Source: Prorocentrum cordatum
Taxonomy: Eukaryota; Sar; Dinophyceae; Prorocentrales; Prorocentraceae
Direction: 5' to 3'
Length of the DNA: 64,000 bases
Assembly (NCBI GenBank): GCA_963575745.1
Contig: CAUYUJ010014340.1
Coordinates: forward strand, 231,501-295,500
Shown: piece by piece, positions 7,891 to 64,000 of the stretch
How the letters are laid out: each line of letters starts with the position of its first letter
How positions within the stretch are numbered: the first letter of the stretch is position 1
Position numbers and translations under genes: made by a program
Notes under the pieces: model-generated
Databases searched by the model: none
Told to the model about the DNA's origin: nothing
What the model saw: the letters and a program-made list of their open reading frames with translations, nothing else

Positions 7891-8406
7891 CGCGGTGCTT
7901 CGCCCAGCCCCTGCCCTCCTCGCCGCGCCAGCGAACGTCTCCAGAGATCCAGCGCCCGCGTCGCGACAGCCTCTCAGCGCCGAGCGGCGCCGGGTTATCC
8001 CAGCGGTTTTGCCGTCCGATCTCTACCAGCGCACCCATGTAAAACCGTGTCTGGAGTCCACTTGTACTTCACCCAAATGGTGAGCTACTCGAGGATGGCT
8101 GCGGCGACTTTCGAACTCCCTTCAGCGACATCGCCGGGGGGGCACCCGGAATTGTTTCACGAGGCCGTGGGCAATATTTCCAAAATTGCTTCAACGTTAA
8201 GGAAATGGAACGCGAAACACGTCCGCCCCGCGAACAATTTCAAACAATTGTTTCGCCGGGGGGGGCACCTGCCCAGGCGAGAAAAAATGCCCATGAAATG
8301 GTTTAGCGGTCAACAACTTGCCTGGTCAGGATCCCCCTACCCGGCAAATTTTTGCCCGCCAGAGCAATATTGTTCGATATAGCATGTGGGCCAAATGATG
8401 CTTTAA

Positions 8407-19050: not shown

Positions 19051-20093
19051 CTTTCACCGGAAATTGCGCAGCAGCCTCGACACTTCCTCTGGCGCCACAG
19101 GGGCTGCGTCGCGCTCCATGGTCACGGTCACGACGGCGGCGTATACCTTAAGGACGGTTGTCGCGGAAGCGCCAGCAAAACAGTTACCGGTCGGCCACTC
19201 GCGACAGCTCAAGAATGCTTCGAGCGCCACCAGGTCCACATACAGCTCCACATCTTCTCGCCCTGCACCCTCCTCCTCAAGCGCGGCGTAGTTGCCAGCG
19301 GGGGCGTCGCGCTGGAAGTAGTGACACTGCGCGTGGATACTCTGGCGCTGGCGCTTCGTATCCAGGCGCTGGGGCCACCCATGCGGCCTGCGGTCTAGAC
19401 TGGCCGCCGCACGCTCGATGGCCGCGCAGCCCTTCTGCTGGCCGTCGGCGCCCCCCAGCTCCTGCAGCTCCTAGGCTAGATCCTCTGACCCCTCGACTAC
19501 TTGCCAGGCTGCCAACGTCACCTGCTGGACGTGGCCAGAGAGGTCGCCGTCGGCATCTTCGGCAACCGACAAGGACGATGACAAACCCCCTTCGGTGACA
19601 CTGGCGGCGCCTCGGGGACTTCGATGACATAGCCATCGAAAGGCCCCTCTCGGCCCTGCCCGGCGTTCGCTGCAAGCAGCGGTTCAGCAGCCAAAATGAA
19701 CTGGATGACGCGGGCGCCCTTCCGCCATTCGCCGATGAGCTCGCGGGCGTCGCCGTCCACATGCGGGCGCCAGACGTCGCTCAGGTCCCAGGGGAACCAC
19801 TGCATGGACAAGCTGCGGGCGCAGCCCGGCCAGTCGCCCGAAGACTTCTGGCTGCGCACAAGACGCGCGGCACGAACGTCTGGCAGTTGAAAGCATCCAC
19901 GGGACAAGTGGCGCATGGCCTCGAGAATATTGGGGCGTTGCCGAGCCCGCTCGGTCAGCTGCGCGCCCTTCGCGCCCCCCCAGCGGCCGATGGTCCGGCC
20001 TGGCTCCTGAGCCTGGTGCGATGTGCTCCAGGTAGTCCTCCACGCGATCCCAGGCTTGCTCGCGCCATGCCTGTGCCTGCGTCGTCGAAGACG

Positions 20094-21126
20094 TCACCGA
20101 TGAAGGCCCGTGCGTCCTGCACTCTGCAGACCATCTCGACTTGGCGGCACCTGCCTGCAACTTACAGAGATGATCGTGCGAGGCAATGCCCAGCCCGTTG
20201 CGTCTTTCGTGTTGGAACCCCTGTGGATCTCTACCTGGTTGCCAACGTTGAAGCGCCCCTCTCCGGTCTCGGTGGCGAGCTTCCGGAGGGCGCGGCTGAG
20301 CGCGGGAAGTCGAAGTGGCTTCACCCATGCGTTGCAAGGCAATCTCTCTCCCATCCGCCACTGCAATCGCGCGGGCTGCACTTCGCAACCAGCAGCGGGG
20401 CCGGAACCAGCAACATCGTCGGCACATAAAGCGCCCTCCTCATCTGCTTTGAGCGGCGGCAGCGCGGAGGGCTGCCTGCCAAAGGCGACTTTGAGCGGCG
20501 TAACGCCGCCCACCTGGGCGAGGCTGTTGCCCGCGAAGAACGCGTTGGCCAGCATGGAGTCGAAGTTGGCGGAGATACCTTTGCGCTCCAGCTGCCCCTC
20601 CGCGGCGCGAAGTGCGCGTCGAAGCACGGCGCCGCGCCGCTATGTGAAACGAGCGTGCTGGCGCGGAGCTCGGATGTAAATCTGTCATCTTCGCATCCTC
20701 ATCTCCTCCACGATTTATGCTGGGTTCATGCCGCCTTCGGCGCCCGCGATGAAAGTCTCCATCGCGCCGAACAGGAGGATCCACAAACGGTCGATGGCCA
20801 CCAGCAGCGTCGCGCCGCGTCTGCCCGCGACCTCCTGGCCATTGCGCCAACGCGAGGCACCGCCCATCAAGCGCAGGATCTTGTTATCCATCTAGTAAAG
20901 GATGTCGCAGGTGCCGGTCAAATTGCGTCGAAAGGCGCAGCGCGGGAATGGTCTGGCACGCTGGTGATAGACATGTACGACATTCCCGACAGTCGCTGGC
21001 CGCTGTGGGGATGCGGTCGAGGACTGCCTGTCGAACGTTGGCTGCTCGCAGAGCTTGTGCTACTACCTCCTTTGTAGCGCGCCACTGCCGGCGGTGTAGT
21101 TTGCGCAGCTCTCGCAAGCGTCTCAC
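20094..21126 (-). pseudogene. Integrase relic
   Basis: The zinc-binding region reads LRKLHRRQWRA then CRECRTC (21090-20970). The core region from about 20890 reads ILRLMGGASRWRNGQEV, TLLVAIDRLW and FGAMETFIAGAEGG, in which the aspartates expected at MGG (usually ID-A/G) and FIAGAEGG (usually a D before GEGG) are replaced, ending at a stop. The C-terminal part (20627 on) reads LANAFFAGNSLAQVGGVTPLKVAFGRQP, the family's conserved FAGN...TP...GRQP block. The catalytic acids are lost and several frames are used, so it is inactive. Confidence 0.65.
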
Positions 21127-23350: not shown

Positions 23351-23559
23351 TCAGAGACTGATGACAAGCCCGGCGCTTGCCGGGGAACAACTAGCTGGCG
23401 TCGGCCACCTGCTTCCCAGCTGGACGTCGCCACTGAAGTTCGCGCAGGCCGAAGTTCGCGACCCTGGCGCTGGCGCCCTTGACCCGGGCGCGACAGTCGG
23501 AAAGGAAATCGAGGAGTCGGCGCACCCCGCCCCAAATCGCGTCGACCACGAATCTTCGC

Positions 23560-23810
23560 AGTCGGGGCCGATCACTCCGCCCGAGACAACGACGCCCTTC
23601 AGGGGGGGTCGAGCGCGGGGCAATCCGCAGGCAAGTGCCTGGCGGCGCAAGAGCGACGACGCCCGTAGACACCAGTTCTCGACCATGCGCAGCGATACTG
23701 ACGTCCGCGCGGGCGCGCAGGTCGCAGCCTGCCGCCCGCGGCGCGCCGCGCCCCGGTGCTTCCGCGCTGGGGCTCAGAAGCTGGATCTTAAGCTTCTTGA
23801 ACTCGCGACC
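23560..23810 (-). pseudogene. Trimeric dUTPase domain relic
   Basis: Motif 1: AAGCDLRARADVSI (family AAGYDL). Then GRELVSTGVVALAPPGT and motif 2: LRIAPRS. The frame then shifts and motif 3 continues as GVVVSGGVIGPDCEDSW (family G-x-x-V-x-x-GVIDxDYxG). The catalytic Asp and Tyr of motif 3 are Gly and Cys here, so it is probably inactive apart from the frameshift. dUTPase keeps dUTP out of cDNA and is known from lentiviruses and some LTR elements. It lies directly after the protease region on the same strand. Confidence 0.65.
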
Positions 23811-23849
23811 GTCGCCGGTGTCGCGTCGCCCAGGCGATTTGTTGCCCAC

Positions 23850-24194
23850 TGCCAGCAGCGTAAACTGCGTGGGCGGTAGTTCCCTGGAGGGCGGCTGCAG
23901 TCGGTCAACGTTGTCAACTGGCACGCGCAAGTGGCCACTCGGCACCGATCTCAAATCGACGCGGATGGCGCGTGGGCCCCACTTGATCTCGAAGCCGCCA
24001 GGCCCGGGAAACGTCAGGCTTGTGCGCGCCACGCCTGTCTCCACCACTCCGTTGGTGGACCGCGTGGATTGCCAGCCGAGGAAGACGCGGAGATCGAAGC
24101 CTGCGCCCTCCAAGGTCGGAGCGCGCGTGCCGTGCTGCGTGGTCACGAGGTCGCGGGTGGTGAGTGCAACAGGGCAATGTTCCTCCCTGCGCAA
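23850..24194 (-). pseudogene. Aspartic protease C-terminal region relic
   Basis: LTFPGPGGFEIKWGP and VPSGHLRVPVDN parallel element C's protease end (IFPSGDYTLKLG and TPSGHLAIPCG) in spacing and residues. The active-site DTG region upstream was not found. Fuses in frame to the dUTPase relic. Confidence 0.5.
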
Positions 24195-42429: not shown

Positions 42430-43764
42430 ATGGGCCACCCCAGACCGTTGGTCCTGCACCGACTGCTACAGCCAGCGGGCGCACAGGACAGCGTCCTGCA
42501 ATGCACATCTGAATATCGATGTGAACACTGTGTGGAGCGTCAGCGACCTCCAAAAGCACCCGACGCCAGCGTGAAACAGGCGACGAAGATCAACGAGACG
42601 ATCTACACCGACGTGTTCTGGATCAGGACGGCGACTGGCAAGGCAGCAGTACTCTCGATGGTAGACGGAGCCACCTGGTACTGCCCACTACGACCCATCA
42701 AGACAGAAACGGCGGACAAGCTAGTCAAGGCAGTCGAGCGAGCCTGGATCAGGCAATGCGGCCCGACGAATGAGCTCAGGATGGACGACGGCTCGGGATT
42801 CGCATCCGAGAGGTTCACGCAATTCTTGAAGAAGCAATGGATACTCATCGTGATCGCGGCAGGCGAAGCTCACGCCAGACTGGGAATAGTGCAGCGACGC
42901 CACCAACTAGTGAGAGATGATATCGAGCTCTACTGCAACGACGCGATCGAGCGAGGAGCCAACACCATAATCAAAGAGGAGCTGATCACCGAGGCGTGCA
43001 CCTACGTACCTCACCAGGTGAACCGACTGGCGTTCACCAAGGGATCTGCTTCATGCCAATGGGCACTCGGCGTGGACCTTAAGATGACTATTACGAACTC
43101 CAGCGACAAGTTCTCACCAGCCACCCTCTACCAGATGAAGGAGGACGAGGGCTTCAACAACGTGCTGGAAAAGCGCTCGATGGCTGCGACAGCCTTCACA
43201 AAGGCAGACGCCTCAGCCAAACTCAACCGCGCCCTCCTACGACGACACGTTGCTCTCAAGCACGACTTCATCAGTGGACAGTGGTGCTACTACTGGCGCG
43301 AGGGCAAGACGAACAAGCTCATCAAGAATAAATGGAAGGGACCAACCATCGTCGTATTCAAGGCGATGCGACCAGACGATGTGGGCCCCGGGATCTACTG
43401 GATCGTGCGCGGCACCCAGCTACTCCGATGTGCCCCAGAGCACATACGACTCGACGTGAGCGACCAGGAGTGCGTCATGCTCGAGAACCTCGACAAGTCC
43501 AAGGACACTTTGCGCGGCATGCGCTGGACTGGAGTTACGCAACTACACGACGTGCGCGAGCAGCAGACACCCTTCGAGGCGCCAGGCGATTCCGACATGG
43601 ACGTCGACGAGGAGGACGAGGATGACCACAACCAGCAGCCACCTGCCGAGCGACACCGAGGAGCATCCTCAGCGACGACCCCAATCCCAACTGCAACGGT
43701 AGGCATCTTCATGAGCGGCAGCATCATCAGGAGCGGTACCGCCAACTCCTACGATGACCCCTAG
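42430..43764 (+). pseudogene. Integrase of element B with a substituted catalytic residue
   Basis: DDE-type core: first acid in IYTDVFWI, second in RMDDGSGF, third position in GIVQRRH, where the family has VERRH. The residue 35 positions after the first Asp of MDD is Gln (CAG at about 42892-42894), so the catalytic Glu is lost by one base change. GEAHARLG before it is typical. A C-terminal part with W-x-G-P-x-x-V (WKGPTIVV) and VRGTQLLRCAPEHIR follows. 444 codons without a stop. It would insert the cDNA if active. Confidence 0.75.
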
Positions 43765-50905: not shown

Positions 50906-51481
50906 CATCCGAACGCCTTATCGTCCCCTCATTATTCTGCCCGTTCTCCCCTTCCTCAAACAGTTTGTACAAGAAGCCATTGGAAAACACATGAAAACTA
51001 ATGATACTCGAACTCCCCCACACACACACAATCTTCCAGGTGAAGACAGGGAGCTCCAAGTACTAACAGGGAGATTGGAAAACGATGAGGAAAGGGCAAT
51101 AGTATCAAGCAAATGCAAGACATGGATAGAAGATGGCATGAGAGATAAGGTATCAACCATGCGCGCGCTCAGTGATCCTTCCAGACTTGGGGTAATAGAG
51201 TTTGAGGGTACAGAAATGAAGAATACATATGTGAAGACAAGGGGGGCGAGCCAAAAGAGTTGACCTCTTAAACCCAGATGTGGTTCAACGTCAACAAAAC
51301 GCGCGAGAACGGAGTGTCAGCAAAACGTTTTTGCTGAACACAAAGAGCGCAGACAGCACGACATGCGAATATTCTGGGAAAAGGGCGTCGTCAGGATCAA
51401 AGGTGACATAATACTGGCAACAGTGGAAAGGTCGAGACTGTAGGGGACGGGAACGCCGTGAAGGAAGCGGTGGAGGAATCC
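50906..51481. other. No gene seen
   Basis: Lower GC than the rest, short frames on both strands, no domain. This is the flank of element C. Confidence 0.35.
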
Positions 51482-51768
51482 CAGTCGAAAACAAGCTGGT
51501 AAGCTTAGGTATGTGTTACGCTTTAAGCGTTGCCATATCCCAGGCTTTGGCTCATATCGCATGAGCAAGAGAGCAAGACGAAGCATGGGATCTGGAGTAA
51601 AGGATAGGATGGGCATCGTCAATGGAAAAGGTATTTTCCGATCTCAGATACAAGTCGTGCGCCTCGGTGAGGCACAATCACATATTTGGCCGGGCCCGGC
51701 TTGAGCCAGGCACGGCAGCGGTACATGCTCGATTTATACCTCGCCTTTAACCTTCTCCGTTTAAAGTC
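51482..51768 (-). repeat. LTR-like repeat at the 3' end of element C
   Basis: 287-bp copy of 374-659. It lies downstream (minus strand) of the RNase H, where a 3' LTR is expected. The matching 5' LTR would lie beyond 64000. Confidence 0.65.
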
Positions 51769-51872: not shown

Positions 51873-52817
51873 CTACCGGCGAGTTTCCTCGCTACTAGAG
51901 CGCACCTGCACGCGGGTTTCCCCGCTAGCTCGGGAGGCAGGGCCGTCCTGAGACGACCTGCCCGCCCTATACGGTGTATGTTTCTTCAGCTCGTGCTTGA
52001 AGGATTGCTGGCCGGCCATTACTTGTAGGAGCAACGCGCGGTCAATGCTACCTTTGGTATGACCATCGGCAGTCATATCCCGCGTGTCACACCATTGAAC
52101 GCTTTCAACGATTCCGCGCTCCATCATCTGGCGGATCCAGCTAATGTGCCCAAGCAGAGTACATTCTGTGGGCTTCTTCAGATCTTTGCTAGACAAAGAC
52201 TTGAAGACAGACTCGGCATCAATAGTCAGAGTGACTTTGATACATAGACCACCCATTTCCAATATGTTCTTTAACTGTGTGGGGGTCAATGGTCCCGAGT
52301 GTAGCTCGTGGAGCGTTACAATGGTCGGGTAGCAGTCTTCCAAGTTGTGGGCTGCTGCCAGTGTTTCCGCAGAGTAGCTCGAACGCACCTGCAGTCGATG
52401 AGACTTGCAGTATGCGTCCACCAGGTGCACGACGGGTTTCCCCGCTTGCGTGTGGCCACGCCTCAGCAGGTTAGCCCCGCGGATACCATAGCCTTTGACT
52501 TCGTCGTCTTCATCTCCATTGAGACGGCGATAGCCAGAATCGCTATGCAGGTCAACTTCTCCTGTTGGAGTCATAGCTTGATACACGATCTTCTTCGGAC
52601 CTGCCTGTAGTTTCCTGGTAACCGCGTTTAGTCGTCGTACCTGGATGTTTGTCGGTTCCTGGATACGTTGTAGTGAGACAACATAGACCATCAGCCATAC
52701 CTGCGTGATCAACGCATAGGCTAGAGCGCCACGAAGACTGACGAACATGTCAGAAATCGTCTTTGTCGCTTTGCTCTCAGGATCAGCTCCTGTGAGTTCT
52801 GGATGTGTGATAGGACG
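51873..52817 (-). CDS. RNase H of element C
   Basis: The frame can be read from just after a one-base break at about 52817 (HPELTGADPES) through ATG 52748 (MFVSLRGALAYALITQVWL) to the stop at 51873. RNase H acids: LHSDSGY (Asp), SAETLAAAHN (Glu), TIDAESVFKSL (Asp), DTRDMTADGHTKGS (Asp). Copia-type, removes template RNA during reverse transcription. The last ~25 residues (SRASGETRVQV) are encoded by three mini-hairpins. All catalytic acids present. Confidence 0.8.
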   Translation of the reverse strand, partial: RPITHPELTGADPESKATKTISDMFVSLRGALAYALITQVWLMVYVVSLQRIQEPTNIQVRRLNAVTRKLQAGPKKIVYQAMTPTGEVDLHSDSGYRRLNGDEDDEVKGYGIRGANLLRRGHTQAGKPVVHLVDAYCKSHRLQVRSSYSAETLAAAHNLEDCYPTIVTLHELHSGPLTPTQLKNILEMGGLCIKVTLTIDAESVFKSLSSKDLKKPTECTLLGHISWIRQMMERGIVESVQWCDTRDMTADGHTKGSIDRALLLQVMAGQQSFKHELKKHTPYRAGRSSQDGPASRASGETRVQVRSSSEETRR

Positions 52818-54228
52818 AGCTGTTTGATGTATTCGTCCTGATCAAGAGTGACGCTCCCATCATCGGTCTTGTTGTACCGAACGGCACAGTTTGTGTATGT
52901 ATGCTTGTTCAGTTTGCACTTTCCAAACGTATCTTCAACACACTTGACATACTTGTCAATAGCATCTTCCTTCCCGGTCATATTGATGTCATCAACGTGT
53001 TTGGCTGTCAAGAGGTTTGGGCTCATCTCGAACTCTTCGTCGTATGAAGTAGGCTGTAGCCCAAAGCTCCTAGTGATGGACCTGAGCTTCAACGAGAATG
53101 CCCTGGGAGCATCCTTCGTGCCCGTCCCCGGCTTCAGACACCGAAGACAATGCTTTGATTCGTCATATGACTCAAAGCCTGGCAGTGTGCGAAGGACAGC
53201 TGCTGACCCAGGAGGTAGTGTGAAGCACACCACACGCTCTTTCTCGCCCGTTGCCGCGGCGAGCTCGCTATAGGTCAGTCCCTTCAAGAAAGCCATGTTG
53301 ATGTCCAGGGAAGCGATGATCCAAGCTTTGTTGCATGCAGCAGAACTTGCGAGCAGTCTCTGGCTTGACCTCCTTGCCGTGCCAGAGAAGGTTTCGACAT
53401 CAAAGGCTTCAAGGTCCATGAAGCCACGGAGTACCAAGCGTAACCTAATCGTCCTTTCCATTTCGCCCTTTTCGTTCTTGACAAACTTCCATTTGTATAC
53501 GTAGCGTGAAGTCATGATATTAGACGCTTTGCTCAAGTCAGTCATCTGGAAGCATTTGTTGTCAAGCCAAGTCTTCAATTCTGTGTAAAGGGCTTTGGAA
53601 ACTTTGACCGGATTTGCTTTGACGTCGGCCTTCGTGAGTAGATCGTCTTCCTTGACGACCACGGCACGTTTGGAAGCAGCACTAACGTATACTCGCATAG
53701 TTGTGACGCTGCTGCCATCCAACAATCGGCGTTGCTGCTCGGACAGGACGACTTTGGACATGTCTGCTGTGAAGCAGAGCTCGATGTACTTCCCGTGCTC
53801 ATCGGAGTCCAGATCATATTTACTGTCCGGATCCGTGGAGCATAAAGGAACGTAGTAAGAAGTGTCCATGTCGTATCCTGGCGGGTGACCCCGCTCCGGC
53901 AAGTGGCCTTGCACATCTTCACAGGTCGTAGAGACTAACACACACTGTGTGTCTGTCATGTATGTGGGAACTGCATGCATGACTTCTTCTGTGTCAGCTT
54001 CAAAGAGTGTTCTGTCATCCATCAGTTCAGCATACCACGACTTCAAGACAAAGGCATCCAGATCTTCTTCTGTTTCCTCTATGATGGTCGGGGGCCGACC
54101 ATCGTTCTCCGTAGGAGGCTCCTCAGGAGCAGCTGCTGGAGGTGACTCGCTTGGTGGTGGACCATCAGCGAGTTCCTCAAACTTAGTGAGGTCTCCGGTC
54201 AAATCCAGCAGACGGCTTCCTGGATTTA
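52721..54228 (-). CDS. Reverse transcriptase (RVT_2) of element C
   Basis: An acidic, Pro-rich start follows a one-base frame break near 54225, then KWKFVKNEKGEMERTIRLRL (RVT_2 start), SLDINMAFLKGL (motif A Asp), LPPGSAAVLRTLPGF, RCLKPGTGTKDAPRAFSLKL (motif B region) and TAKHVDDINMTG (active site HVDD, about 53000-52980). The last residues before the frame break are DQDEYIKQL. The Tyr of YVDD is His, a change that does not remove the two Asp. Expected to be translated as part of the polyprotein. Confidence 0.85.
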
Positions 54229-57200
54229 AGACACTGGATGATGCGTGAGTGTGTAGATCCTGTGATGTCGTAGATGTTCAAGGCAGTGCCATCAGCTTCA
54301 TAGTAATGAAAACCAGGGGTCACATCATTATCATAGTGCACTAGTGTACAGCTGTCTGCATAGGGTGCAGCAGGCAACTTCGTCAGGCTCTTGGCAAGTC
54401 GTACAGCAACAACGTTTTCAATACGAAAGTAGTTGCGTATGAGGTACTGAAGAGCCAAGTGCACCTTAGGCGAAAGTCGGCTCGCAGCAGTCATCTGCAG
54501 CCGACCCTGTTTCGCTGGTAGATATCCGAAAGTCATGGCGGGTTTCCCCGCTGGCAGACCGGCAATAAAGGCCAATACTGTCCGAAGGGCCGTATTGTCC
54601 GATCCTATCTCGCGGACCATAAGTGCTTCGATGTACAGCGTGTGTCGTGTGTCAGGATACTGTACTCGCACCTCGCGACTGCCGACCTTCACGATGACCT
54701 GGCCTCGGTCAGGTTCGTTGCGGATGACCGGGTATGGACCACTCCATCCACCCCAGTCGTCTTTCGTGGTGGTCGGGCGATGATAGTCCACGAGATCTCC
54801 CTCTTTGTAGTGAAATTCACCCGTAGCAGTAGTCTTCGTACGGAGAGCCCTGTTCGTCTTGGCAACCGCAGTGGCCTGCGTGATTGCCTCCAGACTAACC
54901 CTCCTGATTGTTTCCTCCCTTGAGTGATCTGATGATTCAGCGGACTGATCATGATCCAAGACAGGGAAATCGGGAAGCATAGCTGGTTGTCTGCCATACA
55001 GCGCATTGTACGGAGACACTTCATTGTAGAAGGTAAATGCGTTGCTGGCAAACAAGGCTTCATGTAAAAGACGAGTGAAATTCAGAGGAATATTTAATCT
55101 ATTCAATTCTTCTCCCATCACGTGTATGAGGTGTCGCAGGATGCCGTTCCTAGCTTCGATAGTCGTGGCGTGTTGGCCACGCGCTCGGATACGAAGCTCT
55201 GTTCCCTTAGCCTTAAGGATGGCCTTTGCTGTATCGTTATTCAGTGCTCCTTCCCCATCGGAGTATAAGATTTTAGCAGGGCCATGTTGCATCCAAGTTG
55301 TATGATAGGCATCGAGAACAGTATGCATGGTCTTATCAGGAATCTCTGTGCCAGCTGCCCAGCGAATACAACGGTCGATGATGTGAAAAACAATATGTTC
55401 CTGTTTGTAAAAGAAAAGATCACATTCGACTTCCTCGTTGAAACGTCCTGGCAGTGACACAGAAGGCATCACCGTGTTGCCTGGTTTGTCCCAGGCTCGA
55501 CATTCTCTACACGAGTCGCAAATGCCTTTGATCAGACTCAAACGGGTTTCACCCAGACCAACCTTGGTTAGAATCATCCGCATTTTTGGCTCCTTGGCAT
55601 GAAACCATCTCAAGTGGAGTTTGCGGAGTTCTCGCTGCACTACAGCTGGGTCAAAGCTGCGCAGGTTTTGGAGGCTGAGCTGAACGTCGAAGCGAGTCCA
55701 ATCAGGGAGCCTTGGCCTTGGCCTCGGCTCTGCTTGAGGCTGCGGCGGTGGTGGAGGATCTCCTCCCTCCATGCGTCCGCGCCTTGCTGCAACTTGTGGC
55801 AGTCTACGGTGATCGTCAGAGCTGCCAGCGCCAGTGTTGCCACCATTAGCCCCTTCGGCTCTGGTGATGTCATGGCTGCTGGCGCCTGCGGTTGGATCGC
55901 CCTCACCAGGCCGTGGCGGCCTAGGCGCGCGTATGCGCGCTCTCGCGGCCGGCGCCGCTTTTGCGGCTGGCGCCGCTTCTGCGGCTGGAGCCGCTTCCGC
56001 GGCTGGCGCCGCAGGAGCGGCTTGCCCCGCCGGGCGCGGCTGGCCAAAGTTATCTGGCAGCTTCCATTTTTCGGCGAATCTGCATTGGCCAGATATCTTG
56101 GTGTGGTGAGGATTGCTCTTCTGATATTCCTTCTTACAGCTTGGACAGTCCCAGTAGTATGGTTCAACATCATACCACCGACACATCTTCGGATCCCTGC
56201 TGTGCTTTGGTGATTGCTTGTAGTTGTTGTCCACACAGCCAGGGCACCCAAGACCGCCAGGTGGTGGTCGCCAGATTTCTCCGTTTGGGTGTCTCCGGAT
56301 TGTTGGGTCGTCCAAGTCGTAGCCAGCACTGTTTGTTACGAACGCATAGCTGCGTTCGCGATTCGCGAATGGATCGCGACCGTAAGCAAACAGGTCTTTG
56401 GCGATTTGCACCGCATCAACGATCAGTGACTGCATTCTGTAGGTATACTGTGCCGCCCTTGCTAGTTCTTTGTTACAAGCATTGGCGTGCACATGATTAC
56501 CTGGACAACGCTTGCCTCTGAAAGGTGCCAACAACTCTTCTTTGTTTGCCATCATCTGTGTTGGCTTGCGGATGTATTGTCCAAATGAATCTTTGAGACC
56601 AGTCGTGCACTGATCAATAATCGTTTGGCAAGTGACCTTGCGTTGTGCCAGTTCCTTCCATGGCTGGATCTCATCCACCCACGTGCCCATTGGTTGTTCC
56701 CTGAGAAAGAAACGTCTTAGGTCGTCTTGTAATAGAGCGACTGTTCCACAGAACGTGATGTGAGGCAGGTCCTCTTTGTGGTGTTTAAGCCACGTATCAT
56801 GATTGACCTGTGCATTGAAATAGGAAGGAAGTCCAGTAGTTCTGCAGCTTGGCTGCAGAATCGTGATCTTGACAAAGCAAGTCTTGAGGTAGTGGAGGAC
56901 TGCTCTTTGTACTTCCGAGTTTCCAAGGTCAACCATAGATATCTTGTCAAGGTTCCCGCCTGACGAGAGTCCCCTCTTGAAGGCTAATATGGATATACCA
57001 CCCTTGCCCCCACATAATTCAAGCATGTCCACTTGATTGTTTCTGCCGTAGCATAATGACTGGACCATCGAGAAGACATCAGCATGTGAGTCAGCGGGTT
57101 GCCCCGCCGGTAACATCATGAAGATGTCCTCTGATTCGCTGTCCGAGTCCGAGTCGTCAAGAGGAACGTCGTTGAAATATGTGGAGCAGTCAAGCCCTTT

Positions 57201-58472
57201 GAGGTCCTCTCCACAGTCGTCGTTACCGTCTTCCACTTTCTTCGGGACTTTCTTCGGTTTGATGCCGGCCTCTTTGTCAGCTTTCTGCTTTTCTTTCTGT
57301 TTTATCCTGGCATCAGTGGGCAACGCAGTTTCCGCGGAGAGATCCGCTGCGGAGGAATCCGCTGTTAAGTCAGGAAATGGCGGAATTTCAGGAAGGTTGT
57401 TGGTGGGTCGCGTTTGGCAACGCTCAATCGAAGGGGGAGGAGATCGATCGTCGTCGACGATCGTCACACGCTTTGGGCGTGGCCTTCGCGACTCACCGTC
57501 GCCATGAAGAACTGGAGCCGGAGGCTCCCAGTATAGCCGAGTACTGATGTTTGTAACCCCATCAGGTAATGGAGCTACATAATTGTACCCAGTTGGCTGA
57601 TCCTGGATTCTGATATATTGAACGATCTTATTCGTGTCCAGGTCGGTCGTGACTCTACGAACAACATGGTCCCATTGAGGGCCCTTTTGTGGACATTGGA
57701 CGTAGTGTCTGACCTTTCTGTCAACGCGAGTACACACACTGAGGTGTACCGCCCTCCGCTCATTCCTGATCATGTTGGCTTTATCGAGTTGATCAAGGAA
57801 GCGTGCAATAATGATAGCCAAAGTTTTATACCGAAACTCGGCACGTTGCTGATCTTGGCCATACCAATCCAAATCATGCTCCTTGTGTGAGCCACAAGTA
57901 CATTTCCATAAGTTTATCGGTATATGAGGACAAGATGTAGCAACTTGTATATAAGAACCACTGGGATATTTACTGGATCGGTCAAACTTGATACCGAAAT
58001 GACAGAGTCTCATTCGTATAATGCTTAGCTTCAAATCTTCGATAACATCTTTGATCGGACCCTGTTTCCAGAAATACCCGGGTGGCCCCAGGATAACTAT
58101 CTGCATTCTCAGAGCACGCGCTTTGATCAGGAGATTTTGTATACGTTGATAGTGTGGTCCCGCCCTCTTTCCTGGAGTACGAACGTACCAATCAGAGGGT
58201 GTGGCCACCCACAACATATTGTAGTCTCCTGCCAACAAATTTCCCAAATACTGTGTTCCAGTTGAAGTCATTACCTCATTATGGGTAATCCGGTCGCATA
58301 TATATCCACGGGTTCGGAGTTCAGCGCAAGCTGTGCGAATATCTTCGATGACAAGACATTTTGAATGATATTTTTCCTCTCGGGCCTCAGCGCGGCCAAC
58401 GTATGTAGCGAGGAGGCCGGTATTCGGCTTCTCTTCGCAAGCGAGCGCCGCCGGCGCGCCCGCCTGCCCCCG
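54183..58472 (-). CDS. Pol part 1 of element C: methyltransferase-like modules, zinc knuckles, integrase
   Basis: In frame with the gag-protease gene across a single TGA; the 67 codons between TGA and the first ATG (58271) read as conserved protein (KYHSKCLVIEDIRTACAEL, GYICDRITHNEV), so translation probably enters by readthrough. Domain A (to about 57800): LAGDYNMLWVATPSDWYV, VILGPPGYFW, HFGIKFDRSS and YIQVATSC, a degenerate methyltransferase-like fold. Domain B: MLELCGGKGGIS (SAM-binding glycines, about 57030-56995), ILQPSCRTTG, EQPMGTWVDE, VTCQTIIDQC. Then two CCHC-like clusters (CPGC...H...C, CPSC...H...C, about 56255-56090), an Ala/Pro stretch made of four tandem mini-hairpins, integrase zinc region CDSCRECRAW, and acids at ECDLFF, YSDGEGAL and TTIEARNG (about 34 residues between the last two). 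C-terminal GWSGPYPVI block. Ends at 54183 after a one-base frame break. Confidence 0.85.
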   Translation of the reverse strand, partial: RGQAGAPAALACEEKPNTGLLATYVGRAEAREEKYHSKCLVIEDIRTACAELRTRGYICDRITHNEVMTSTGTQYLGNLLAGDYNMLWVATPSDWYVRTPGKRAGPHYQRIQNLLIKARALRMQIVILGPPGYFWKQGPIKDVIEDLKLSIIRMRLCHFGIKFDRSSKYPSGSYIQVATSCPHIPINLWKCTCGSHKEHDLDWYGQDQQRAEFRYKTLAIIIARFLDQLDKANMIRNERRAVHLSVCTRVDRKVRHYVQCPQKGPQWDHVVRRVTTDLDTNKIVQYIRIQDQPTGYNYVAPLPDGVTNISTRLYWEPPAPVLHGDGESRRPRPKRVTIVDDDRSPPPSIERCQTRPTNNLPEIPPFPDLTADSSAADLSAETALPTDARIKQKEKQKADKEAGIKPKKVPKKVEDGNDDCGEDLKGLDCSTYFNDVPLDDSDSDSESEDIFMMLPAGQPADSHADVFSMVQSLCYGRNNQVDMLELCGGKGGISILAFKRGLSSGGNLDKISMVDLGNSEVQRAVLHYLKTCFVKITILQPSCRTTGLPSYFNAQVNHDTWLKHHKEDLPHITFCGTVALLQDDLRRFFLREQPMGTWVDEIQPWKELAQRKVTCQTIIDQCTTGLKDSFGQYIRKPTQMMANKEELLAPFRGKRCPGNHVHANACNKELARAAQYTYRMQSLIVDAVQIAKDLFAYGRDPFANRERSYAFVTNSAGYDLDDPTIRRHPNGEIWRPPPGGLGCPGCVDNNYKQSPKHSRDPKMCRWYDVEPYYWDCPSCKKEYQKSNPHHTKISGQCRFAEKWKLPDNFGQPRPAGQAAPAAPAAEAAPAAEAAPAAKAAPAARARIRAPRPPRPGEGDPTAGASSHDITRAEGANGGNTGAGSSDDHRRLPQVAARRGRMEGGDPPPPPQPQAEPRPRPRLPDWTRFDVQLSLQNLRSFDPAVVQRELRKLHLRWFHAKEPKMRMILTKVGLGETRLSLIKGICDSCRECRAWDKPGNTVMPSVSLPGRFNEEVECDLFFYKQEHIVFHIIDRCIRWAAGTEIPDKTMHTVLDAYHTTWMQHGPAKILYSDGEGALNNDTAKAILKAKGTELRIRARGQHATTIEARNGILRHLIHVMGEELNRLNIPLNFTRLLHEALFASNAFTFYNEVSPYNALYGRQPAMLPDFPVLDHDQSAESSDHSREETIRRVSLEAITQATAVAKTNRALRTKTTATGEFHYKEGDLVDYHRPTTTKDDWGGWSGPYPVIRNEPDRGQVIVKVGSREVRVQYPDTRHTLYIEALMVREIGSDNTALRTVLAFIAGLPAGKPAMTFGYLPAKQGRLQMTAASRLSPKVHLALQYLIRNYFRIENVVAVRLAKSLTKLPAAPYADSCTLVHYDNDVTPGFHYYEADGTALNIYDITGSTHSRIIQCLKSRKPSAGFDRRPH

Positions 58473-58478
58473 TCAGCG
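58440..58478 (-). promoter_or_regulatory. Candidate UGA readthrough site between gag-protease and pol
   Basis: The stop is TGA at 58475-58473, immediately followed by CGG and then almost pure G/C sequence that contains nested palindromes (GGCGCGCC, GCCGGC) and a CGCCGC/GCGGCG pair flanking the stop. UGA-CGG or UGA-CUA plus a downstream stem-loop is an established leaky-stop context in RNA viruses. Upstream and downstream coding are in the same frame, the arrangement gammaretroviruses use for gag-pol. A plain nonsense mutation is the alternative. Confidence 0.55.
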
Positions 58479-61400
58479 GCGGTCGTGTGACCACGTTGCC
58501 GTCTGACTCGGGGGCATGCTGTTAGCGGATGGCTCCGCAGGAGTCGCTGGTGCGGCTACGCTCGCGATCTCCACGCGGGTTGGCCCCGCAGAGTCCGACG
58601 AACCTCCGCCCGTGTAGCTTGGTGGTGGTGGCGGTGACGCGGGTGGCCCCGCTTGGTCCTCAGGTGTCCATTTATTCACCGCCTCCTGGACTGCCCAGAA
58701 TATCTTAGACTTCAGGGCATCCTTCATATGTGGCCAGGTCCCTTCGGGACACTGTTGGCCCTCCCACCAGCTGTTCAGCGTCCTGTCCACGATCAAACGG
58801 GTCGTGTCTTCCAGGAGCTGCTTGTCGAGGTACGGCTCGACAATGTACGTATCGGTCGTGACGGTCATGGACTGTCCCGTCGCGGGTGGCCCCGCTGTTG
58901 CTTCGGCGGGTGGCCCCGCACTTGCTCCAGCGGGTGGCCCCGCACTGACGGGGTCCTCTTCGTTCTCCGTCTCGGTATAGCCATCTCGACTGCTGCGGAT
59001 TGTGAAGGTGTTCGTGACCGTCTGGCTTTTAGCCCCGTCATACAAACCGCAGGGAATCGCGAGATGTCCCGAGGGAGTTTTCTTCGCCTTCAGGACCTTG
59101 GCGCCCCTTCCCAGCTTCAGGGTGTAGTCACCGCTGGGGAAGATAACCTTCTGGTAGCCTGGCTTCAGCACGATGATCGTGTCACGTGCTTCCATGGCTC
59201 CTAGGCCCCAGATGGCCGGGAGATTGGCACCCGAGCCTTCTGCGATGTTGGAGGCATACTCCTCGATACGGGGGCTTGCCTCATTGGCATATTGTACCCC
59301 GATCTTGAAGTTGCCCATCTTCCGACATATCGCAGCGCCCTCACCAACACCATTGATGTAGAGGGTCTTGCTCAGGGTGCATATGGCAGGTCTATGATTG
59401 TACCTGGCCATAATCTCCTGGAAGGTTCGCGCCGTATTGGATCCAATGATGTTCACGTTGGACCCAATGTCTAGCATGAACGAGATGCAGGGCATACCGT
59501 CTTCGTCAGGGAAGAATGTCCCATTTCGCGCTGCCAGAGCCATTGTACCATGGTCATTGGTGTGGTACGTGATCTGCGAACCGAGTGTACCTTTCAACAG
59601 GCGCTGTTCAAGCACCCATTGGCTCATGGTTAGCTCGGTGCACCACATCTGCTCATATTGGCGGCGCTCCTCCACGGTAATTGGTTCCTGTTCAAGAACC
59701 CAATAATTCGCAGATAGTGTGGACATCCATTCACCTCCTGGCGGCAGCGTGTCCGTGTCGTCACGTGCATAGGTCAGCCCCTCTGTATCGATCATGAATG
59801 TGGTATGGAACTGGGCTGCCTCCGCGCTCTCAGCGCTTGCCCGGCTCCTAGCGCTGACCGGGCTTGCCACACGCGAGGTCCTGGTTGATCCAGTTGGCCT
59901 TCGAGTCCCGCCTCCGCTCCTGCCACTCCGCCTGATGTTGGCCTCCATTGCCCTCAGGAATCCTGGATTTGGAGGTCCATTTGCGGGTGGCCCCGCTTTG
60001 GCGGCGGGAGCCGCTTCAGCGGGTGGCCCCGCAGCTGGGGGCTCCTGCGCTCGAAGCGTAGGCAGGATTGGCATCTGGATGCCTTGCTCTGGCGCTGGCC
60101 AGGGGTGTGCCTGTGCAGCTGGGGCACGTGCGGATGGCTCCGCCGATTGCGCGGCTCGAGCTTCCAGTGCCTCCACTGCTTCACGTAGCCGACGCATTTC
60201 CCGGGCATCTGCCACGTACCTTTCCTGCTGGCGCGCTTGTTCCGATTCAGCGTCGCGCTGTCCAGCATACGGGAAGTGTGCTATAACTATGCCCGGCCCA
60301 CGACACACAGCGCAGGGGGCCTCGTTCGGCGCACCTGGTCGCTGATTGCGGACGTGCTGCTGTGCAACACGATCCCAGCATATATCGTGGAAGAAGTGCC
60401 CACACGCCAGTCTCCACACTATAGTGCCCATCTCGTAGTTGTCCATACAGATTGGGCACTGTGTGAAGTTGTAGTCTGAAATGACTGGAGCAGGCACGTC
60501 TGGGCGAGTCCGAGCTTGGCGCTCGAAAGTGGTTTCGCCCTCCCGATATGGCGTCGGTGGCGGCCGTCTATCTGGCCGTTCAGCGGGTGGCCCCGCGTCT
60601 GCGGGTGTCCCCGCTTGGGTCTCACGCTCAATCCTTCTCTGGATCGCGCGTTGTTGGCGCAGCCTGGTGTTGTCCCGAGCCTGCTGCCTAGATGCCAGTA
60701 TCGCTTGCTGCGTGTTGTGCACGTCGCGGATGTAGTCTGGCATGCTGCCCATAGCGGCTGGCACCGCGAGACCAGCTGGCTGAACTACGGTCTCGGGGTC
60801 CGTCGGCGTGGGCATGTAGGCGTAGTGCGGCATAGACTGCGCATCGACCGCTCGTGTAAACTGCAAACGAAACATCTCATTGGCAAGATTCCGAGTGTAT
60901 TCGTTCGCAGGTGGCCCCGCAATCATAGGAGTGTTATTCATCTGCGCGTAGTACTCCGGGTACATCGGCGCGTCCATGGCCTGTGCCTCTGCTGGTCCGT
61001 GATTGTCCCATCCATATATTGGGTGTGATGCTATTCCTGGAATAAACACCTGTCGATATGGATTCGTGGGATCAGCATTTGGAGCATCTTCAGAAGTCCA
61101 GCTCCAGAGAGGCCGAAAGTCGCCATGATTCGTAACATCTATGTTGCGGTTCCGCAACAGGCTGGGCACTCTATCAGCTTGTTGCTGCAGAAAGGTAGCC
61201 TGTGCTCTTAAGTTGGCTGCCCGACGTTCGTAGTCTGAACCTTGCTGTCCGTCAGCGGGTGGCCCCGCATGTGCGGGTGGCTCCGCAGGCGTTCGCTCGG
61301 CGGGTGTCCCCGCAGCCACTCCTCCTTCACTACCCCTCGGAGTGCCAAAGGGAGTGGTCGCCTGGAGTGCTGCTGCGAGCGCCGGATTCCCGCGAATCGC

Positions 61401-63443
61401 CTGGAGTCTTTGCCACAAGCTGTTCTCGCTCGTTTCAGACGGCGGAGTCCGAAACGGCGAGCCACCATCTGAGCCGCCCATAGGGACAAACCTCGCACCT
61501 CCAGCCTGCTGCGGAGGGCGTTGTGGTTGTGGTCCTAGGGCGCCTGGTGGCCCCGCAGGAGTGCGCAGGTTCCTCTGCTGTGCGTCTTGGATACCTGTAT
61601 GCACTGCCCACGGGTCAGCACGATATAGCTGATCGGTCAGTCCAGAGACGTCGGCTGGTGTCAAGTAGCTGTTGAGGGCCTGGACCCATGTCTGCTGATC
61701 CGGCCTCCAAGGAGATGCTACCGTTGCTACTGGTGTGACCACTTGTTGCCATGAACCGTCCGAGGTGTCTACCGCGGGTGTCCCCGCACCTGCGGGTGGC
61801 CCCGCTTCAGGCATGACCTCGTCTTCCTGGGCATTTATCATGAGGACCGTCTGTGTGTCGTACGGTCGTGGAGCAACATCTTGCTCGGTCATGATCAAGT
61901 TGAATGGGCGACCGTCCGTCTTAGACCAGCCCTTTAGGTACATGGCGTGATCTTCCATTACACCCAGAGTTCTGTCACATAATTTAAGTGGCAGGTAGTC
62001 ATCGGTGCGAATCCTGTCCGCGGGTTGGCCCCGCCTCCGCGACTTGTCATAAGCCAGCGGATTGCTCCAGGCTTCACCGACCCGATATTTCGCAATGCTC
62101 ACAATCTGGAGGATATGATCGGGCGGTATACGGCCGTCGTGGCCCCGTGTCATGACGATGTCATTTGCTGACCTCCATATGGAAAAGCCACTGGACAGCA
62201 TCTTGTTGATGCTGCAGAATATGAGCACCTCCGAGTCAGGACGGATGCCCGATTGAATCCTCGGGTCGCCCGGGAGGTAGGGGCAGCCGTGTACAAATTG
62301 GCGCCCCCCCTTCCTTTTAGGGTTGTCCTGTGCGAGGCATGAAAGGCCATTAGCAAGGATGTCCTTGACATACTCCCACTGTGTCCCGTGGATGAAATAT
62401 ACTGGGTCGTCTGGTTCTTTCATCCATGTTGTGATCGGCTTATAAAGCGACTCGGGACAGTGGATGCCTGGGCTGCTGTGGCCGTTCGTGGCTCTGATGA
62501 AGTACTGTGGCCTGCGTGCCGTTGGTCGAAACCTGGGAGGCAGCAGCATGCTGTCATCAACGCACTTCATCTGGAGCCTGCCCTTCTGCATGCCGTGATG
62601 GTCAATCATCTCACAGCAGTTTAGCAGCACCCAATACACGTATGACGTGTGGGGCCTGCCCTTGATCAGCACCTCGTGCATTTCACGATAGCCTTTCCAC
62701 TGATCATTTTCAGTCCAGTTTGTCAGCAAATCGTCAACAACAACCCAGCCATCGTATGGATCGAAAGTGCTAATCTTTTCGAAGTGTCGGCTGAATCCGT
62801 CCTTCCAATACGGACTATGGCGTAGGGCTGTAGAGAACCATGTTGACACCTTGGTCATTTGCCCATCGCGCGGCAGAGTCGGATCCATGCCGAACCTCTC
62901 CATGACCTTCATGAGCTCTGCCTTATGCTGTGCGACGCGCAATGGCGGCCTGTCTCGCAACATATTTCCCACGGCTTGTTGCTCACGTTCCCAGTCGTTG
63001 CGGCACTCGAAGTTACGACGATCAGGGCAATTAATGACCTCGTATCGGTCTGTATCGTCTCGAGTGACTCGTGGGTTTATGGTGCGCTTCGGGCCTTTGC
63101 CTTCAATGCCTTGCCAATATTCCATGGCTCCCAGAGGGATGTTCCTAAGAACAGACATTACTGGCTGCCAGCGCGCGGGTGGCCCCGCTAACGCAGCTGG
63201 CGACGCTCTAACGGGTGGCCCCGCTAATGCAGCTGGCGCCGCTTTAATGGGTGGCCCTGCAGAACCTGCGGCTGACGAGGCAGCTCCAGCGGATGACTCC
63301 GCGCCAGGGTGCGGGTGACCTTGGTCAGCCACTGCATCGTCGGCTTGTTTCTGTCGGTCGCCAAATTCTTTGAGGGCTCTGAAGCGTTCTTCTCTTGAAG
63401 AGTGCTTTCTGCGGGTGTCCCCGCTGCTGCAGCTGGCGCCGCT
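58473..63443 (-). CDS. Gag-protease polyprotein of element C with Tpt1/KptA-like and RING-H2 domains
   Basis: Open from a TAA at 63446-63444 to TGA at 58473. Numbered from the GTG at 63332 (1619 residues). Residues ~160-415 are a Tpt1/KptA RNA 2'-phosphotransferase-like domain: STALRHSP (R171), GWVVVDDLL, IRATNGHSSPGI (R280, H285), VYFIHGT, GRQFVH, LPGDPRIQSGIRP (R364), SIWRSANDIVMTRG (R387). The enzyme transfers a 2'-phosphate from tRNA splice junctions to NAD+. Residues 959-1010: RING-H2, C-x2-C-x14-C-x-H-x2-H-x2-C-x21-C-x2-C, typical of E3 ubiquitin ligases. A helical, Gln/Arg-rich part follows. Residues ~1280-1440: aspartic protease, MLDIGSNVNIIG (DIG in place of DTG), IWGLGAM, TPSGHLAIPCG. 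Linkers hold many AGPPA peptides encoded by mini-hairpins. Gag capsid similarity is not evident. The true start lies upstream in another frame. Confidence 0.85.
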   Translation of the reverse strand, partial: SGASCSSGDTRRKHSSREERFRALKEFGDRQKQADDAVADQGHPHPGAESSAGAASSAAGSAGPPIKAAPAALAGPPVRASPAALAGPPARWQPVMSVLRNIPLGAMEYWQGIEGKGPKRTINPRVTRDDTDRYEVINCPDRRNFECRNDWEREQQAVGNMLRDRPPLRVAQHKAELMKVMERFGMDPTLPRDGQMTKVSTWFSTALRHSPYWKDGFSRHFEKISTFDPYDGWVVVDDLLTNWTENDQWKGYREMHEVLIKGRPHTSYVYWVLLNCCEMIDHHGMQKGRLQMKCVDDSMLLPPRFRPTARRPQYFIRATNGHSSPGIHCPESLYKPITTWMKEPDDPVYFIHGTQWEYVKDILANGLSCLAQDNPKRKGGRQFVHGCPYLPGDPRIQSGIRPDSEVLIFCSINKMLSSGFSIWRSANDIVMTRGHDGRIPPDHILQIVSIAKYRVGEAWSNPLAYDKSRRRGQPADRIRTDDYLPLKLCDRTLGVMEDHAMYLKGWSKTDGRPFNLIMTEQDVAPRPYDTQTVLMINAQEDEVMPEAGPPAGAGTPAVDTSDGSWQQVVTPVATVASPWRPDQQTWVQALNSYLTPADVSGLTDQLYRADPWAVHTGIQDAQQRNLRTPAGPPGALGPQPQRPPQQAGGARFVPMGGSDGGSPFRTPPSETSENSLWQRLQAIRGNPALAAALQATTPFGTPRGSEGGVAAGTPAERTPAEPPAHAGPPADGQQGSDYERRAANLRAQATFLQQQADRVPSLLRNRNIDVTNHGDFRPLWSWTSEDAPNADPTNPYRQVFIPGIASHPIYGWDNHGPAEAQAMDAPMYPEYYAQMNNTPMIAGPPANEYTRNLANEMFRLQFTRAVDAQSMPHYAYMPTPTDPETVVQPAGLAVPAAMGSMPDYIRDVHNTQQAILASRQQARDNTRLRQQRAIQRRIERETQAGTPADAGPPAERPDRRPPPTPYREGETTFERQARTRPDVPAPVISDYNFTQCPICMDNYEMGTIVWRLACGHFFHDICWDRVAQQHVRNQRPGAPNEAPCAVCRGPGIVIAHFPYAGQRDAESEQARQQERYVADAREMRRLREAVEALEARAAQSAEPSARAPAAQAHPWPAPEQGIQMPILPTLRAQEPPAAGPPAEAAPAAKAGPPANGPPNPGFLRAMEANIRRSGRSGGGTRRPTGSTRTSRVASPVSARSRASAESAEAAQFHTTFMIDTEGLTYARDDTDTLPPGGEWMSTLSANYWVLEQEPITVEERRQYEQMWCTELTMSQWVLEQRLLKGTLGSQITYHTNDHGTMALAARNGTFFPDEDGMPCISFMLDIGSNVNIIGSNTARTFQEIMARYNHRPAICTLSKTLYINGVGEGAAICRKMGNFKIGVQYANEASPRIEEYASNIAEGSGANLPAIWGLGAMEARDTIIVLKPGYQKVIFPSGDYTLKLGRGAKVLKAKKTPSGHLAIPCGLYDGAKSQTVTNTFTIRSSRDGYTETENEEDPVSAGPPAGASAGPPAEATAGPPATGQSMTVTTDTYIVEPYLDKQLLEDTTRLIVDRTLNSWWEGQQCPEGTWPHMKDALKSKIFWAVQEAVNKWTPEDQAGPPASPPPPPSYTGGGSSDSAGPTRVEIASVAAPATPAEPSANSMPPSQTATWSHDRR

Positions 63444-64000
63444 TTAGCGGGTGGCCCCGCAGAGCCCTTGTCCTCCTTAGCTTTGGCGGCTGCTTCTGCC
63501 CGCACCGACCTCATCCCAGCTTCGGGCTTCGGCTGTGCTTTCATTCGTGCCGAACCTGGTCGTGGTGCAAGGCGCGGCTGATGCAGAGTTGGAGTCCAGT
63601 CACCTCGGAAGGCTGCCTTAGGCTGATTGCGAGCTTCGTCCTTGACATCGCCTTGGGCAGCCGGTGGCATCGGGGTCGATGGTCCAGCAAAAGCCTTCCT
63701 CCTCTCCGTCACGGACAGACCGGGAGGATCTTCGAGCTCAAGGTCGTCCGTCTTGGCGATCCCTCTGGCCTTCGCCCGCCCCTGTGTGCCTTCGGGGCTC
63801 CTGGACGGGTGCCTCTTCGCAGGAGTCGGTGAAGACGAGGAGTCGGCTTCAGGTCTTGGAGGTGGTCTGCTGCCCTTGCCTGGTTGTGGACCAGGAGGGT
63901 CCTTAGGAGGGCCTTCTGGCTGGCCATGATCATGGATGATCTGCCTCATATGGTCGATGTCGGCAGTGCCTTTTATGGCCAGCTTGTACTTGCCATTTTC
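63224..64000 (-). CDS. Gag part 1 of element C (partial, continues beyond the window)
   Basis: Open from the window edge (ENGKYKLAIKGTADIDHM...) to a stop at 63224. Proline-, lysine- and glycine-rich, basic; contains SAGPPAKAAPAA from mini-hairpins. The protein-like frame changes within the hairpin pair 63411-63460: downstream of it the third frame (RKHSSREERFRALKEFGDRQ) reads as natural protein and runs into the gag-protease gene, whereas this frame becomes unremarkable. A hairpin of 14 nt is not a multiple of three, so an inserted or lost copy could have caused the break; programmed frameshifting is another option. Confidence 0.6.
   Translation of the reverse strand, partial: ENGKYKLAIKGTADIDHMRQIIHDHGQPEGPPKDPPGPQPGKGSRPPPRPEADSSSSPTPAKRHPSRSPEGTQGRAKARGIAKTDDLELEDPPGLSVTERRKAFAGPSTPMPPAAQGDVKDEARNQPKAAFRGDWTPTLHQPRLAPRPGSARMKAQPKPEAGMRSVRAEAAAKAKEDKGSAGPPAKAAPAAAAGTPAESTLQEKNASEPSKNLATDRNKPTMQWLTKVTRTLARSHPLELPRQPQVLQGHPLKRRQLH

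Follow-up and report, generated by a model that had tools for sequence, protein, structure and literature searches.

The window analysed here, 64 kb of the 4.13-Gb assembly of the dinoflagellate Prorocentrum cordatum (genome size reported as 4.15 Gb; PMC10666404, papers being cited throughout by PubMed Central, PMC, number and for excerpts of their text), was read together with the following 6 kb of its contig, C13491, on which it spans positions 231501-295500. On the minus strand lies a Ty1/copia-type long terminal repeat (LTR) retrotransposon of 16,353 bp, which extends 3.8 kb beyond the window, to position 67835, and has the apparent gene order Gag-Tpt1-RING-protease-(UGA)-integrase-reverse transcriptase-RNase H (Table 1). 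This recently active, multi-copy retrotransposon carries a complete-looking Tpt1/KptA domain, the family of NAD+-dependent RNA 2'-phosphotransferases, within Gag. The captured domain sits between nucleocapsid and protease, upstream of the UGA.

The retrotransposon and its parts

The 3' LTR and the 5' LTR, the latter outside the window, are identical at 285 of 285 positions. Directly after the 5' LTR stands a primer-binding site, TGGTAGCGGAGC, whose 12 bases fit the 3' end of a tRNA, presumably of the initiator type; no match of at least 8 bases to an initiator tRNA was found. A copia-type primer made from an internal tRNA fragment, the 3' end of which would need healing, was rejected since the primer-binding site fits the tRNA 3' end instead. 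No clear polypurine tract was seen upstream of the 3' LTR, and no tRNA genes were found in the 64-kb window. A related LTR, 94% identical to that of the element, lies at 373-658 of the window (minus strand) and is either solo or part of another copy.

The Gag frame (63227-67711) contains a capsid-like part, recognised by eye, and a candidate CCHC knuckle, CHTCGSTEHLRDQC, both outside the window; with zf-CCHC Gag scored 17.6 bits, under the cut-off of 20.8. The next frame, free of stops over 1,656 codons, holds Tpt1, a RING finger and a putative protease. An initial annotation of the window had placed Tpt1 inside a Ty1/copia Gag-protease polyprotein. This location stands, but Gag does not share the frame in the window copy, where Gag and the Tpt1 segment are read in different frames and the open frame runs Tpt1-RING-protease. 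The RING finger, and the passage of the element beyond the window edge to 67835, are additions to that account. The putative protease is recognised by its motif, which reads DIGS in the relative P0006 and DVGS in L050, a copy of a second lineage described below; a Pfam search of frame 58473-63443 returned no protease family.

Beyond the UGA the same frame continues as pol, with 1,429 open codons. Its putative integrase part lies before the reverse transcriptase and resembles another copia-like stretch of the window; it had no Pfam match, its motifs being found by eye only. Reverse transcriptase and the RNase H-like part are frame-shifted relative to their neighbours in the window copy. The methyltransferase-like motifs of pol (LELCGGKGG ... 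ILQPSCRTTG), which had no match in Pfam or NCBIfam, are common to both lineages, including L049 and L050 (by eye).

A UGA separates Gag-protease from pol in four of four copies, making stop-codon readthrough possible, a strategy that is unusual for copia elements. The readthrough context TGA-CGG was rejected as the signal, as CGG follows the UGA in the window copy only and AGA in the other three. A hairpin is predicted after the UGA (no shuffle control).

Table 1. Features of the window, with the Tpt1 domain first. Positions are those of the window; residues are those of the frame 58473-63443.
Feature	Position	Strand	Remarks
Tpt1/KptA (PTS_2-RNA) domain, residues 199-434	62142..62849	minus	PF01885, tetrad, HGT, R401
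ALRH	62817-62828	minus	Tpt1 landmark
RATNGHS	within 62475-62498	minus	Tpt1 landmark
HGT, residues 352-354	62382-62390	minus	Tpt1 landmark, NAD contact equivalent
GGRQFVH	62289-62309	minus	Tpt1 landmark
LPGDPRIQSGIRP		minus	Tpt1 landmark of window domain
RSANDIV	62154-62174	minus	Tpt1 landmark
Tetrad R208	62820-62822	minus	
Tetrad H209	62817-62819	minus	
Tetrad R317	62493-62495	minus	
Tetrad R381	62301-62303	minus	
C-terminal Gag, different frame	63227..64000	minus	Gag frame runs on outside window to 67711
Overlap where window copy shifts frame, Gag vs Tpt1 segment	63227..63443	minus	
Open frame with Tpt1, RING, putative protease; 1,656 codons + stop	58473..63443	minus	
RING finger, residues 995-1048	60300..60461	minus	PF13923 30.1 bits, PF13639 29.8 bits, both above cut-off
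Putative aspartic protease motif MLDIGSNVNIIG	59442..59477	minus	non-canonical D-I-G-S; motif only
UGA stop separating protease from pol, one frame	58473..58475	minus	UGA also at matching place in L049, L050, L052
pol start: N-terminal part, methyltransferase-like motifs, integrase	54186..58472	minus	no Pfam match above cut-off
Methyltransferase-like motifs	56832-57026	minus	by eye
Integrase HHCC	55491-55616	minus	by eye
Integrase D,D,E residues	55143-55430	minus	by eye
Copia-type reverse transcriptase, other frame in window copy	52724..54277	minus	PF07727 RVT_2 E 1.3e-11
RNase H-like part, by position	51876..52841	minus	resembles copia-like stretch elsewhere in window; no Pfam match
3' LTR, 285 bp	51483..51767	minus	identical to 5' LTR 67551-67835
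5-bp target-site duplication GGGAT	51478..51482	minus	same bases at 67836-67840
Integrase-like stretch, diverged copia-like	19851-20930		
Reverse transcriptase-like stretch, diverged copia-like	7410-7904		
RNase H-like stretch, diverged copia-like	6676-7205		

Identity and catalytic residues of the Tpt1 domain

The Pfam profile PF01885 matched the frame over essentially its full length (profile positions 6-177 of 177; E 8.9e-16), with a score of 58.9 bits where the curated cut-off is 26. A PDB sequence search, independent of Pfam, returned the tRNA 2'-phosphotransferase 1 chains 7yw3 (E 2.8e-12) and 7yw2 (E 3.6e-11) and, weakly, 7yw4 (E 0.043); RING fingers were also matched. The significant PF01885 match bears out the Tpt1/KptA identity proposed in the initial annotation, and all the landmark motifs that it named were found in the frame.

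CthTpt1 depends on an essential tetrad of Arg18, His19, Arg68 and Arg121, and contacts NAD through HGT (residues 101-103) and Arg139 (PMC6333775). The candidate Arg-His-Arg-Arg set is present as R208, H209, R317 and R381; together with HGT these residues align with five PDB Tpt1 chains, and R401 is the equivalent of the NAD-phosphate arginine Arg139 in the window copy.

Copies, lineages and purifying selection

The window lineage has recently amplified to at least 40 near-identical copies, all 40 scored copies of its domain (792 candidates) being 99-100% identical. Thirty of the 40 were fetched, the window copy (L055) included; in 29 of these the domain is open with all seven key residues, R401 among them. 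The 500 codons upstream, read in the domain frame, are stop-free in 23 of the 30, and 22 combine both properties; L055 itself has a stop there. P0024, catalogued as a protein of a Myxococcales metagenome-assembled genome and evidently the same element, reads Gag and Tpt1 in one frame. Pieces of the element are also held by the P. cordatum gene models P0003, P0004, P0005 and P0011: one Gag-to-Tpt1 junction is common to the first three, and in P0003 and P0011 the protease part is joined to the RNA lobe. Such junctions could reflect splicing or exonisation of the element.

A genome search with PF01885 gave 150 scored places (of 2,877 first-look candidates), all of which passed the cut-off. The seven best loci (L001-L007) look like host genes, some of them partial and L003 with an in-frame stop. 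Of the other 143 places, 40 were fetched (L009-L048, with L008 marking the same place as L009). Sequence words of a second element lineage are present in 39 of these, and the fortieth (L023) has stops in the frame read. Twelve listed matches lie, with a stop-free domain, in open frames of 2,926-2,943 codons, which may cross runs of N (C19443). Three 10-kb stretches (L049, L050 and L052) show Gag with knuckle, Tpt1, RING and protease motif all in one frame, then UGA and pol. The domains of these stretches were checked by Pfam in L050, whose RING finger scored 34.5 bits with PF17123, over the cut-off, and 26.2 bits with PF13639, under it.

The element Tpt1 is under purifying selection. In the second lineage (30 full copies and 435 pairs, after setting aside L023 and nine partial loci from the 40 fetched), pooled dN/dS fell from 0.32 (dS 0.02-0.1) through 0.22 (0.1-0.3) and 0.17 (0.3-1) to 0.12 (>1). 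The dN/dS comparison proposed in the initial annotation was made mainly on this second lineage of the same genome; it was taken over the Tpt1 domain alone. For the window lineage the evidence comes from near-identical copies: among 29 of them we counted 8 synonymous changes and 5 non-synonymous ones, against a ratio of 1:3.4 expected from the sites (binomial P 0.003), a weak test because the copies were picked by rank. The catalytic residues of the second lineage are kept almost throughout: the tetrad as R 30/30, H 30/30, R 30/30 and R 28/30 (two W), and HGT with H 30/30 and T 29/30.

Relatives and origin of the domain

P0006, a protein of 1,627 amino acids from ENA, has Tpt1, RING and DIGS in the order of the window element. 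Compared with the window frame it is 46% identical over Tpt1, 48% over RING, 39% over the protease part and 18-31% over the rest, which makes Tpt1 and RING the best-kept stretches of the frame. Other relatives, found in ENA, in JGI and, under the label Pyramimonas sp., in EukProt, are 33-54% identical to the window domain. Where covered, and leaving the window copy out, the alignment read by eye has RH in 5/5, the third Arg in 7/7, HGT in 6/7, the fourth Arg in 5/6 and the R401 equivalent in 7/8. Another organism is named only on the EukProt Pyramimonas rows, a label that may be contamination. Protein searches by short exact words found no named dinoflagellate besides P. cordatum, and no relative appeared in viral contigs and phages at the search sensitivity used.

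In a tree of 18 rows, the nine element domains group together; the other rows, four Tpt1-like ones of the host and five PDB Tpt1s, fall outside this group. It has support of 88/90, under the tool's 95/80 mark, and occurs in 87% of bootstrap trees; support is weak at the deeper forks (65/83), and several rows sit on long branches. A single capture of Tpt1 would be the simplest reading of these sequences.

The frame changes in the window copy might raise the suspicion of an assembly artefact, a dead passenger or a fortuitous similarity. However, the strength of the PF01885 match, the 99-100% identity of 40/40 scored copies, dN/dS values well below 1 and the shared architecture of P0006 leave this explanation a negligible probability. 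Confinement to one copy, which the initial annotation had named as fatal to its proposal, is not what we found: the domain has many genome copies and has relatives in other data sets. The PF01885 E value and the many copies rule out a chance match or a single-copy oddity.

Hairpins and other features of the window

Nineteen copies of a 14-base hairpin unit, GCGGG-NNNN-CCCGC, lie in the element's 12.5 kb inside the window (51925-63460, minus strand; sites include 63460, 61805, 58919 and 57107), and four in the remaining 51.5 kb; shuffling the bases of the element leads one to expect 0.01. Seventeen of the 19 lie in frame as AGxPA, a peptide of which P0006 has eight. We counted hairpins on the coding strand against 200 synonymous-codon shuffles that preserve the protein. 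Stems of 5 bp with 4-base loops number 31 in open reading frame 1 (ORF1; shuffle mean 9.6, maximum 20), 24 in ORF2 (8.3, maximum 14) and 38 in L050 (12.7, maximum 21). Stems of 4 bp with GNRA loops number 26 in L050 (3.6, maximum 8), 4 in ORF2 (0.9, maximum 4) and none in ORF1 (mean 0.8). Stems of 6 bp show no excess over the shuffles, and a helicase frame of the window, a short and weak control, has no such hairpins. L050 has a different unit, in which the stems co-change (CGGG/CCCG, CAGG/CCTG, CGAG/CTCG) around GAAA-type loops. The hairpin excess is ambiguous because the units are repeats, and the spread of one repeat would give an excess too.

Elsewhere in the window, a dUTPase domain (23391-24194, minus strand; PF00692 28.8 bits, cut-off 22, profile 3-54 of 129) lies upstream of diverged copia-like stretches (Table 1), and a further integrase core domain lies at 42430-43764 on the plus strand (PF00665 38.7 bits, cut-off 32.6).

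Proposed function of the Gag-borne domain

Classical Tpt1 uses NAD+ to remove the 2'-phosphate left by tRNA-ligase-type healing (PMC6333775), and a 2'-phosphate next to a 5'-phosphate inhibits Xrn1 (PMC6456296). As far as its sequence tells, the domain is most likely an RNA 2'-phosphotransferase or an RNA ADP-ribosyltransferase packaged with Gag. Removal of 2'-phosphates, which we rank first, and 5' ADP-ribosylation, ranked second, would both matter to an RNA that is translated, packaged and copied. Our preferred reading, which we hold to be evenly poised between right and wrong, is that a Ty1/copia lineage captured Tpt1, kept it in Gag-protease and uses it with NAD+ on 2'-phosphates of packaged RNA. 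The domain would be catalytic and, lying upstream of the UGA, should be made with Gag and be plentiful in particles, enclosed with the RNA in virus-like particles. Packaged RNA, either genomic or the tRNA primer, would be broken and then healed by a host pathway of the tRNA-ligase type, leaving 2'-phosphates. The packaged Tpt1 would strip these using NAD+, thereby giving reverse transcriptase a clean template or primer. Taken together, our data suggest repair or capping of the element's own RNA ahead of its copying into DNA.

Several results weigh against such a role in 2'-phosphate removal. The predicted structure of the window domain has a mean pLDDT of 56.5, and below 40 in the NAD lobe, where it is unreliable. 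The domain scores 22.8 bits with the NCBIfam RNA 2'-phosphotransferase equivalog (prokaryotic models), under the cut-off of 239; this cut-off is not discriminating here because the host Tpt1-like gene L001, with 186 bits for PF01885, likewise falls under it (92.3 against 231). In the second lineage the equivalent of Arg139 (R401 in the window copy) is Trp in 30/30 copies, a replacement that speaks, at the level of sequence, against ordinary catalysis in that lineage. Tpt1 is also no better kept than the Pro-rich linker between L050 and the window (27% against 30% identity), and some relatives are eroded, P0009 having neither the fourth Arg nor R401 and P0014 no HGT. Moreover, since the host owns Tpt1-like genes, supply in trans might suffice.

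The same Arg-to-Trp change could favour transfer without release, because Runella Tpt1 mutated at its NAD arginine (R137A) is inactive at 0.1 mM NAD+ and accumulates the ADP-ribosylated intermediate (PMC6333775). It may point to a domain that is mainly an RNA 5'-ADP-ribosyltransferase, capping decapped 5'-monophosphate RNA of the element, blocking 5' exonuclease and shifting the RNA from translation to packaging. Human TRPT1 ADP-ribosylates 5'-monophosphate RNA; the resulting cap shields the RNA from XRN1 and does not support translation (PMC9458441). With its link to Gag, the enzyme would encounter RNA just as it passes from translation to packaging. However, the tetrad residues required for the second step are retained in nearly all copies, and the data at hand do not separate this activity from 2'-phosphate removal; we regard it as credible, if doubtful.

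Loss of the NAD arginine in one lineage would also suit a segment of Gag that binds RNA or has a structural role without being an enzyme, as would the position of the domain next to the nucleocapsid and the winged-helix nature of the Tpt1 RNA lobe (PMC6333775). We consider this rather improbable, as the catalytic HGT and tetrad are retained in most relatives and, across the two lineages, in nearly all copies read. Alternatively, the target might be the host, with the domain countering an RNA-cleaving defence by mending host tRNA, or modifying a host protein together with RING. Phage and viral KptA have been interpreted as a counter to RNA-cleaving defence (PMC9503650), and both lineages, like P0006, keep a RING in the frame that holds Tpt1. 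Yet we noticed neither a ligase nor a kinase as partner among the Pfam matches of the element frames, and human TRPT1 was found inactive on protein (PMC9458441), which makes a host-directed role very improbable in our view.

A wider scheme of NAD+-dependent RNA-end chemistry inside the particle, which we think quite improbable, would bring in the hairpins. Genomic RNA studded with tetraloop hairpins would be cut and religated, or decapped, and Tpt1 would clear 2'-phosphates or add ADP-ribose, deciding between translation, escape from exonuclease and reverse transcription; the second lineage would then be a dedicated RNA ADP-ribosyltransferase.

The role of Tpt1 outside fungal tRNA splicing is described as an open question (PMC6333775, PMC9458441). 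The element offers a testable setting in which retention of Tpt1 is selected, in a recent, multi-copy family of a bloom-forming alga with a 4-Gb genome. If 2'-phosphate removal or 5' ADP-ribosylation of its RNA is true, retrotransposition would be tied to NAD+-dependent RNA repair or capping.

Comparison with known systems

Ty1/copia elements are defined by LTRs, a short target duplication, a primer-binding site, integrase before reverse transcriptase, and RVT_2. The element has these traits, the integrase among them being putative, and differs from Ty1/copia elements in the Tpt1 and RING between Gag and protease, the UGA before pol and a length of ~16 kb. With cellular Tpt1/KptA/TRPT1 (PF01885) its domain shares the full length, the Arg-His-Arg-Arg tetrad, HGT and, in the window lineage, the NAD-phosphate arginine. 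Unlike cellular Tpt1, it lies inside a retrotransposon polyprotein, on a branch separate from host and PDB Tpt1s, and has additional segments, both within the RNA lobe and ahead of the fourth Arg.

No report of Tpt1 in a retrotransposon was among the matches listed from open-licence PMC papers. In the excerpts of PMC4053983, PMC3549820 and PMC3230848 the words for Tpt1/KptA and for retrotransposons occur separately and unconnected, and in those of PMC6338049, which treats accessory domains, 'phosphotransferase' does not occur. The main text of PMC9503650, as excerpted, contains neither 'retrotransposon' nor 'retroelement', and that of the P. cordatum genome paper (PMC10666404) none of 'retrotransposon', 'LTR' and 'copia'.

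KptA is known from phages, sawfly baculoviruses and Bodo saltans virus, and a few positive-strand RNA viruses, of which two are named, encode it within their polyproteins (PMC9503650). The latter resemble the element in having Tpt1 within the polyprotein of an RNA-based replicator. They are, by description, a different replicator class: the element has RVT_2 and LTRs in place of the RNA-dependent RNA polymerase that characterises KptA-bearing RNA viruses. Gammabaculovirus KptA is likewise carried by a mobile genome, but as a stand-alone gene of a DNA virus and not as a Gag domain (PMC3230848). Retrotransposons of dinoflagellates and charophytes with captured DNA methyltransferases (DNMT) are a parallel in that a nucleic-acid enzyme resides in an algal retroelement, although the enzyme and the element classes are different, and the Copia elements of Symbiodinium are without DNMT (PMC5890265). 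Retroelements with captured enzymes and polyprotein-borne KptA are thus both precedented.

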